Source: an uncultured Bacilli bacterium
Lineage (GTDB): Bacteria > Bacillota_I > Bacilli_A > RF39 > UBA660
Assembly (NCBI GenBank): GCA_947589535.1
Contig: CANQAS010000007.1
Span: 1-35,521 of the forward strand
Length of the DNA stretch: 35,521 bases
Direction: 5' to 3'
The notes below the pieces were generated by a model. That model was not told the DNA's origin. It worked only from the letters and a program-made list of their open reading frames with translations, and did not search any database. Shown piece by piece: positions 2,847 through 35,521 of the stretch. A program made the position numbers and the translations under genes. Numbering within the stretch: position 1 is the first letter of the stretch; each line of letters begins with the position of its first letter.

Positions 2847-3328
2847 GATAACAACCCTTTCACGTTTTCAACAATAACTTCTTTTTTTTCCATATTAACT
2901 TCTTTAATAAAAGCTTTAACATATGGTATCATAACATTATTATCTAAAACTAAAACTTCATTTGCAGGAGTGTCAATTACATCTTTAATGATTCCTACAA
3001 AATTGTTATCTATTATAACATTAAATCCTATTAAATCAAAAGATAAATATGTATTTTTATCTAATTTTAGATCTTCTTTATTTATGTATACCATTGATCC
3101 TTTTAAATGTTCAACTAAATTAATATCATGTATTCCTTCAAATACAACCATATCAAAGTTTTTGTGTTTCCTATATGATTCTACAATGTATTCTTTTTTT
3201 TCTCTTCCTACGTAAAACCTCATATTTTTAATAAACACTTTATCTTTATATCTAAAATTAGAAAGTAATCTAACTTCACCTTTTATCCCATGAGTATTAA
3301 CAAGTTTCCCAATATATAAATATTCCAT
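2843..3328 (-). CDS. rimM: 16S rRNA processing protein RimM (start [14 protein letters not shown])
   Basis: [16 protein letters not shown] motif and PRC-barrel C-terminus; ATGA overlap with trmD. Confidence 0.92.
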
Positions 3329-3329
3329 A

Positions 3330-4055
3330 TTATTCTCCTTTTTGTAATTCATACATTATAATTGAAGCTGCAACTGCAACATTAAGACTTTCGCAATTAC
3401 TATTCATAGGAATGTAGATGTTAGTATCTGCATATTCTTTTATTTTACTAGATACACCTTGACCTTCATTTCCCATAACAATGATTATTTTATCTTCTTC
3501 TTTAACCGTGTTAATCATCTTGCCATCATTTACATCCGTTACGCATATTTTATAATTTTCTTCTTTTGCTTCTTTTATAAATTCTATTAAATTTTTAGTA
3601 ATGACGTTAGTTTTAAATAGCATACCTTGTGATGATCTAATTAATTTTTCATTATATTTATTAACCGAATTATCACTTAAAACTACAGTATCAAAATTAA
3701 ATGCATTGGCACTCCTAATTATTGTTCCAATGTTACCAGGATCTTGTAAGTTATCTAACACAATAACTTTTTTTCCAATTTCTTTTTCTACGATAAATTT
3801 ACATATTCCAATAACATTACTACTAGAAGGTAATAAACTTATGTAATTCATTATGTTTTTTGTAACCAAGACATTAGGCACACCATAATTAACTTCTTTT
3901 ACTGATATGGTTTCTAACAAAATACCAGCATTATATGCTTCTTCTATTAAATGAGTACCTTCTACTATAAACTTGTGTTCTTCATTCATGAATTTATTAT
4001 TTCTTAATTTATTTATATATTTTATTTTTTTATTTTCTTTTGATTCAATTACCAT
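3330..4055 (-). CDS. TrmH/SpoU-family rRNA methyltransferase
   Basis: LDNLQDPGNIGTIIRSANAF and VMGNEGQGVS, SLNVAVAASIIMYE SPOUT motifs. Confidence 0.92.
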   Translation of the reverse strand: MVIESKENKKIKYINKLRNNKFMNEEHKFIVEGTHLIEEAYNAGILLETISVKEVNYGVPNVLVTKNIMNYISLLPSSSNVIGICKFIVEKEIGKKVIVLDNLQDPGNIGTIIRSANAFNFDTVVLSDNSVNKYNEKLIRSSQGMLFKTNVITKNLIEFIKEAKEENYKICVTDVNDGKMINTVKEEDKIIIVMGNEGQGVSSKIKEYADTNIYIPMNSNCESLNVAVAASIIMYELQKGE

Positions 4056-32588: not shown

Positions 32589-33563
32589 TTATATATATAG
32601 TAACAAAATTAAAATTGCTGCTAAAAAGTTTTGAAGAAAGTGCATACCTATTGAAACAAAAATATTTTTAGAATCATAATATGCTTTAGCCAAGCATATT
32701 CCTAATGCAGAATACTGAAAAATATATAATAAATCATTAAATGATGTAAATTTATCTATCATATGAAGTATACCAAATAAAAATCCACTTATTATAATAA
32801 ATAATGTTTTGTTTTTTATTACCTTTGATAATGATAGTCTAAATACATTTTCTTCAACAAATGGAGCATATATTGTAGATAGCACAAGGGATGCTAAAGG
32901 TAGTTTTTGAAACATATTATTTAACATTTGTTGATTTGAAGATACTGCTCCTTTATTCAAAAAGACTATTGGAAGTGCTACTATTACCATAATACTTAGC
33001 ATTATAAAATACCTTTTTATGACAAAAGGTAGATATAGTTTAAAATTACTAACGAATAATTTTAAATCGTTTTTTAAACGTCCAAAGTTTAGCATTATTA
33101 CTAGTAAAAATATTACTATGTATATAAAATACGCAGGTATGTGTTTTGAGAAGTTAAATAATGGAAAAACAAACATTATTATAATGAATGAAAAAATAAG
33201 AAAAATAGAGTTTAATACATCACCTTTTTTATTAAAGTATTCATTTTCTGGTAAAACCCTATGTTTTTTATCAGATATACTAGTTAAAAATAATAGACCT
33301 AGTATTCCTGGAATTATTGAATTCATCAATAACCAGATAGAACAAAATAACGTAATCATCTTATTTTTTTTTAATAATAAAACTTCCTTTTTAGACTCTC
33401 TAAAGAGAATAAATGCTACTATTAAATTCATAAATGAAAAAAATAAATTTGCAATAATTTCATCATTTGGTTTGTTTGATAATAAATAATATATAACGTT
33501 TATTACTACGTAAATTATTTCTAATAATGATGCTATTTTAAGTAAGTTTCTTTTATTTTCCAT
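32589..33563 (-). CDS. CPBP family intramembrane metalloprotease
   Basis: APFVEENVFR (EExxxR), SGFLFGILHM, GMHFLQNFL. Confidence 0.88.
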   Translation of the reverse strand: MENKRNLLKIASLLEIIYVVINVIYYLLSNKPNDEIIANLFFSFMNLIVAFILFRESKKEVLLLKKNKMITLFCSIWLLMNSIIPGILGLLFLTSISDKKHRVLPENEYFNKKGDVLNSIFLIFSFIIIMFVFPLFNFSKHIPAYFIYIVIFLLVIMLNFGRLKNDLKLFVSNFKLYLPFVIKRYFIMLSIMVIVALPIVFLNKGAVSSNQQMLNNMFQKLPLASLVLSTIYAPFVEENVFRLSLSKVIKNKTLFIIISGFLFGILHMIDKFTSFNDLLYIFQYSALGICLAKAYYDSKNIFVSIGMHFLQNFLAAILILLLYI

Positions 33564-34859: not shown

Positions 34860-35060
34860 CTAAGAATCTCTTCTTTCACGTTTAGCTGCCTTACGACTGT
34901 TTTTGATAGCTTCTTTCTTAGCGTTTCTTCTTTGAATTCCAGGTTTATCATATTGTTGTTTTTTCTTTACTTCAGAAGGGAGACCGCTTTTAGCTACTCT
35001 TTGTTTAAACTTTTTTAATGCTGCATCAACGTTTCCATTTTTAACTTGAACAGATATCAT
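34860..35060 (-). CDS. rpsU: Ribosomal protein bS21
   Basis: VQVKNGNVDAALKKFKQRVAKSGLPSEVKKKQQYDKPGIQRRNAKKEAIKNSRK; strong purine-rich SD. Confidence 0.95.
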   Translation of the reverse strand: MISVQVKNGNVDAALKKFKQRVAKSGLPSEVKKKQQYDKPGIQRRNAKKEAIKNSRKAAKRERRDS

Positions 35061-35176: not shown

Positions 35177-35326
35177 TTATAAACTCATTATTATCCTAAC
35201 TACAGTACCCACTATCCTACCCAATTGTAAAATGAAATTTGTTAGATAATATATCAAATTACATATTATGGGTAAAGTAAGAATAATTAAAATTATTTTT
35301 GAAATTTTTTTTATTTTAACGGACAC
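35177..35326 (-). CDS. Small hydrophobic basic peptide, putative immunity-like partner (GTG start; not in ORF track)
   Basis: My translation M(V)SVKIKKISKIILIILTLPIICNLIYYLTNFILQLGRIVGTVVRIIMSL*; 16-nt overlap with the upstream peptide gene; GGTGAG 9 nt upstream of GTG. Confidence 0.65.
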   Translation of the reverse strand: MSVKIKKISKIILIILTLPIICNLIYYLTNFILQLGRIVGTVVRIIMSL

Positions 35327-35478
35327 GTATTACCACTCACCATTCTTCTTATGCTACTTCCTAAATATCTGCCTATATCTAAAAAGCTATTAATACCTTT
35401 AATAAGCGAATTTATTAAGGTAGCACTTATTGTTGCACCTGCCTTTATATTTTTTAACTCCGTATTTGATAATTTCAT
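35311..35478 (-). CDS. Putative bacteriocin/pheromone precursor peptide with double-glycine-like leader (not in ORF track)
   Basis: My translation MKLSNTELKNIKAGATISATLINSLIKGINSFLDIGRYLGSSIRRMVSGNTCPLK*; ATG with strong SD AAAGGAGA at good spacing. Confidence 0.75.
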   Translation of the reverse strand: MKLSNTELKNIKAGATISATLINSLIKGINSFLDIGRYLGSSIRRMVSGNTCPLK

Positions 35479-35521
35479 ATTGTCTCCTTTCCTAATTACA
35501 CTTAAATGGGCGTGCTATGCC

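Follow-up and report, generated by a model that had tools for sequence, protein, structure and literature searches.

A vertically inherited two-peptide double-glycine operon in a family of uncultured gut Bacilli

The right-hand end of a 35,521-nucleotide stretch of DNA from an uncultured Bacilli bacterium, referred to here as the window, carries on its minus strand the gene of peptide B, a 55-aa precursor of the double-glycine (GG) type. Peptide B is a real gene, it is under purifying selection, and it belongs to an operon that is inherited vertically. With a probability of slightly over one half (about 0.55), the features of the sequences point to a two-peptide, class-IIb-like bacteriocin system, in which peptides A and B form the pair and peptide C is a candidate immunity protein. 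The two-peptide GG system described here is a near-universal trait of uncultured gut bacteria with genomes of about 1 Mb. Kept in a family that has shed much else, it must earn its keep, and its presence in almost all of these reduced genomes argues for a core role, possibly one other than killing. Since ordinary gene calling passes over genes as small as those of the peptides, such a core trait is easily missed. For RF39, the order of the literature to which this family probably corresponds, Field and co-workers predict thin walls, small genomes and, in part, sporulation (PMC10868615).

Peptide B, the split operon and its transporter

The initial annotation had placed a 55-aa ORF with a strong Shine-Dalgarno sequence at 35311..35478 of the minus strand, and had read in its translation a double-glycine leader ending in AG rather than GG, a GxxxG motif and a single Cys near the C-terminus. 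Each of these elements is recovered when the window is read and its relatives are aligned. The coordinates and the sequence are as it gave them, and the Shine-Dalgarno sequence is AAAGGAGA, upstream of peptide B at 35483..35490 on the same strand. The 14-aa leader, MKLSNTELKNIKAG, has I at position -4 and L at -7 and -12 before the terminal AG, and it is too short to have a position -15, while the core is ATISATLINSLIKGINSFLDIGRYLGSSIRRMVSGNTCPLK. PCAT transporters recognise hydrophobic leader residues at -4, -7 and -12 (and -15) (PMC7018657), and the consensus of the A and B leaders agrees with these recognition positions: among 78 B leaders, position -4 is I or V in 75, position -7 is L in 63, and position -12 is L or I in 70. 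The AG ending is an ordinary variant in the family, occurring in 11 of the 78 B leaders (the other 67 end in GG) and in 8 of 77 A leaders (the remainder GG), mainly in the window's genus.

The core is equally well conserved. GxxxG is kept in 78/78 B cores and in 76/77 A cores, compared with means of 25 and 36, respectively, in shuffled cores; the Cys of peptide B is invariant in its relatives, and nearly all A and B cores have a single Cys, which lies near their C-terminal end. B peptides are cationic, with a mean net charge of +3.2, and structure prediction models the B core as one helix spanning residues 14-48 at moderate confidence (mean pLDDT about 70). Among the window ORFs of 30-90 aa, peptide B alone matched a pattern for GG leaders, and nothing matched in 60 versions of the window randomised with an order-2 Markov model, although this comparison is a weak test because the pattern was written after peptide B had been seen.

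In the relatives, the operon runs from a C39 ABC transporter (PCAT) through peptide A, which has about 46 aa and a GG leader, to peptide B and, often, an overlapping peptide C, and where no contig edge interrupts the locus, the transporter-A-B order is nearly always found. The window ends where its contig, C7, ends, and its last 30 bases (35492..35521, minus strand) encode the end of peptide A, namely the last 9 codons, GIARPFKCN, and the stop codon. A second contig of the same genome, C53, ends with the transporter gene and, after it, the N-terminal part of peptide A, MKNLNTKELKHIKAGAISGWLIAGIIAG, which was also picked up independently by a profile (E 5e-5). The ends of C7 and C53 do not overlap, and about 8-9 codons of gene A, as estimated from relatives, are unseen. 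Because two matching halves of gene A end the two contigs, the operon of this genome is very probably intact and split only by the assembly gap.

Downstream, rpsU (ribosomal protein S21; 34860..35060, minus strand), which lies outside the system, adjoins the operon in 49 of 80 loci. Between the transporter and A, space for an extra ORF is present in 51/85 loci and absent in the window's genus; the four such ORFs that were read encode 144-151 aa with a membrane-type N-terminus, and these four gave no family matches. On C53 (G000:C53, L033), broken IS30-like transposase ORFs lie directly upstream of the transporter at 2870-3735, with an rve match below the cut-off, and positions 835-2781 encode a surface-type protein of 648 aa that weakly matches the List_Bact repeat and whose C-terminus, NPNTS plus a hydrophobic tail, resembles a sortase-type sorting signal.

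The transporter on C53 combines a C39 domain with membrane and ATPase domains. Among solved structures, PCAT1 and ComA are nearest to it, and the catalytic residues Q8, C14, H89 and D105 are unchanged in 95/95 aligned transporters. It thus shares its domains and intact catalytic residues with PCAT transporters such as Clostridium thermocellum PCAT1, pneumococcal ComA and the mycoplasma family NF045998, but it falls under the curated cut-offs of NF045998 (196 versus 500 bits) and TIGR01193 (159 versus 524 bits). No other full C39 transporter was found in the genome, and this one is tied to peptide B through the split gene A. The initial annotation had treated the lack of any such exporter as fatal to its proposal; the genome encodes one, on a contig that ends inside gene A, and in relatives the transporter directly adjoins the peptide genes. 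A candidate second exporter on contig C64 was rejected, its C39-like match (22.8 bits) lying in a 276-aa protein whose ORF has no transporter domains.

Peptide and transporter also occur together across genomes. Among 117 genomes, 112 have both B and PCAT, 4 have neither and 1 has PCAT only (Fisher p 7e-7, a value that overstates independence because the genomes are related). In the sole genome with PCAT and without B (G082), the transporter is cut by a contig edge, as it is in a genome outside the 117-genome set (G600), and one of the four with neither (G083) shows only a weak C39-like match inside an unrelated long ORF. Judged from the sequences, the A and B precursors are very likely exported and cleaved by the PCAT. 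In one genome (G032), B and C lie without an adjoining A or transporter, the transporter being on another contig, and peptidoglycan-binding and holin-like ORFs are found near this locus (G032:C5, L105, 3268-3590), whose state suggests rearrangement or prophage insertion.

Conservation, selection and inheritance

Homologs of the small ORF are widespread. A single peptide B query recovered relatives in 87 of 146 related genomes, and the B profile (A1) matches in 281 of the 292 genomes of the same GTDB family (96 %) that are rated at least 90 % complete. B is present in 118 of the 121 genera of the family, nearly always in single copy. Across 18 members of the genus, median dN/dS values are 0.22 (B), 0.15 (A), 0.37 (C) and 0.09 (rpsU), and the shifted frames of B, with pN/pS of 1.1 and 2.2, are under no such constraint. 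Neither an absence of homologous small ORFs nor a near-neutral substitution ratio, both of which the initial annotation had named as results that would overturn it, was encountered.

Vertical inheritance is evident from a tree of 95 transporter rows, obtained by a quick search and used solely for the question of genus grouping, in which all eight genera with several genomes stay together. Searches of plasmids, phages and viral contigs found no peptide B. On these two grounds, a mobile bacteriocin cassette was rejected. Named records with B are MAGs of uncultured Bacilli, Tenericutes or Mollicutes, together with Candidatus Aphodocola, Onthousia, Pelethosoma and Faecisoma, as retrieved with a narrower pattern (A3) that captures only the motif GR[SY]LG[ST][AS]IRR. 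One locus (G062:C2, L133) contains two tandem B-like matches, neither of them strong, a possible duplication.

Proposed function and competing explanations

If the system works as a class-IIb-like bacteriocin, the PCAT encoded on C53 would bind the A and B leaders via the hydrophobic residues at -4, -7 and -12, its C39 domain would cut after (G/A)G, and both cores would be exported. The A core would form a hydrophobic, Gly-rich helix and the B core a cationic amphipathic helix, each with a conserved GxxxG, and the two would act as a pair in the membrane, as class IIb two-peptide bacteriocins do. Where C is present, its membrane-anchored B-like tail would compete for A or for the target and so shield the producing cell. 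Of this scheme, we infer the cleavage, the secretion, the pairing of the cores, their activity in the membrane and the immunity.

Class IIb systems, represented by the TIGR03949 family, lactococcin G and carnobacteriocin XY with CbnZ, likewise have two adjacent GG precursors with GxxxG cores. The likeness extends to the C39 ABC exporter, to the additional ORF that in many loci separates the exporter from the peptides, to a small hydrophobic ORF after the structural genes, and to some A peptides that pass TIGR03949. The plan of five genes, the GxxxG helices and these A peptides together speak for a class-IIb-like pair. Against the TIGR03949 (lactobin A/cerein 7B) cut-off of 21.5 bits, four of five selected A peptides, taken from other genera and read singly, scored above it (32.8, 29.9, 23.6 and 22.3), with the family-model signal of A coming partly from the leader; one B that was tested reached 16.7 bits, under the cut-off, and the window's B gave no match. 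Family-wide Pfam and NCBIfam scans of B yielded only weak matches of the leader type, and B passed no family cut-off.

Several features set the present system apart from class IIb, including its near-universal presence and vertical inheritance, the one invariant Cys per core, which does not count among the hallmarks of class IIb, a candidate immunity protein whose end resembles a copy of the B core, and an extra ORF that matches no known accessory family. Bacteriocin gene sets are usually patchy and variable, and two-peptide GG systems are known from lactic acid bacteria as patchily distributed accessory weapons; a bacteriocin carried once by almost every genome would be out of the ordinary. 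With ComC/BlpC pheromones, the system has the GG leader and PCAT export in common, but it differs from them in having two peptides and only weak leader matches to ComC/BlpC models. Of the exporter and the two-component system that the initial annotation had suggested seeking, the exporter was found, and no histidine kinase or response regulator was noticed beside the operon when up to three upstream genes were inspected by eye at 15 loci. For a ComC-type pheromone, two peptides with no sensor kinase next to them, as in the loci inspected, would be an unusual arrangement.

Peptide C is encoded by a small ORF of 49 aa with a GTG start (35177..35326, minus strand), which overlaps the end of B by 16 nt. 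Its N-terminus is basic, it contains a hydrophobic segment and ends in a B-like tail, LQLGRIVGTVVRIIM, and it lacks a GG leader. The last 25 aa of C score a mean of 12 bits against the B-core profile, where the 99th percentile of shuffled sequences is 4.3, and the first 30 aa do not score well above shuffles against the same profile; because the C sequences were collected with a profile seeded from the B-like tail and are interrelated, this likeness counts as one observation, not 41. Known small immunity proteins are of similar length, with 42 aa in CbnZ, 53 in BrcI and 55 in AbpIM (PMC6957408), and C resembles them in size and in its single hydrophobic segment. By this analogy, peptide C is hypothesized to be an immunity protein, and its copy-like B core would suggest a simple, testable mechanism of protection. 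The window is one of the 47 loci, out of 101, in which C was detected; it was not detected in the remaining ones, so that immunity in about half of the loci would be provided otherwise or be absent. Elsewhere in the window, at 32589-33563 on the minus strand, a 324-aa membrane protein ORF, which we take to be CPBP-like, lies beside lspA and rluD homologs, and nothing ties it to the operon. CPBP-like proteins can act as bacteriocin immunity proteins in other settings.

An alternative, possible though less probable than a class-IIb-like pair, is that the system provides a conserved secreted signal or serves some other core function, such as kin recognition, envelope maintenance or communication. 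A and B would then act on the producer's own kind, with export and cleavage unchanged and C serving as a membrane partner instead of an immunity protein. Such a role accords with a peptide B that is nearly universal and under purifying selection in a genome-reduced family, with a transporter tree that is true to genus and with the lack of any plasmid, phage or viral-contig trace, and the GG proteins of the mollicute family f4, discussed below, likewise occupy fixed chromosomal places and co-occur with C39. It is at odds with the survey of the 15 loci, where the sensor or regulator of a signalling system was not noticed by eye beside the operon, and with the tandem of two different helical GxxxG peptides, which is a bacteriocin layout.

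A sporulation-linked secreted pair, active in cannibalism or forespore signalling, is improbable. The idea arises from the window's genus, in which YqfC/YqfD lie downstream of the operon and, as judged by eye, SpoIIIAH- and GerM-like genes lie upstream, and from SpoIVA, which has matches in 102 of the 117 family genomes and is weakly associated with B (Fisher p 0.015). However, B is retained in 12 of the 15 genomes that lack a SpoIVA match, among them an 800-kb genome rated 98 % complete, which weakens a sporulation role even if a gene missing from a draft is not proof of asporogeny. Unrelated housekeeping genes adjoin the operon in other genera, as seen by eye. Finally, a chance ORF or a decayed remnant without function, which the small size, missing annotation and contig-edge position of the gene might suggest, is ruled out by the presence of B in nearly all family genomes, its dN/dS and the conserved operon.

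Similar GG-leader proteins in mollicutes

The B profile also matches small proteins in two mollicute families of the same class, f4 and f15, whose genes carry in-frame TGA, as in the mycoplasma code. These GG-leader proteins (L134-L144) are 78-130 aa long, single and not beside a transporter, and they lie between rsmI and rplU in f4 and beside rpmE or lspA in f15. Their leader and the start of their core (ISGxLxxGI) resemble B, but the likeness past the leader is modest; for this reason, and because it was the B profile that retrieved them, common descent with B is put forward as a suggestion.

The JCVI-syn3A study identified no GG substrate for its own or other mycoplasmas' C39 transporters, and another function was tentatively assigned to its gene 0401, a C39 transporter (PMC6609329). 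GG proteins of the f4 type could be candidate substrates of these orphan mycoplasma C39 transporters in the wider group. A broader and rather doubtful proposal is that PCAT and small GG proteins constitute an ancient core secretion system of genome-reduced Bacilli, with a basic cell-cell or envelope function instead of sporadic killing. If true, this system would be represented by the A/B pair in the present family and by longer single proteins in mollicutes, and it would supply substrates for orphan mycoplasma C39s, including that of the minimal cell.

In f15, PCAT is above the cut-off in 34 of 39 genomes, and the GG protein was found by profile in 8. Among 60 f4 genomes, the GG protein is present in 51 and C39 in 50, with both in 49, neither in 8 and 3 discordant (Fisher p 2e-7). 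Within genus g126, where presence varies, 7 genomes have both, 6 have neither and 1 is discordant; one of those counted as having both (G706) carries a broken C39 fragment.
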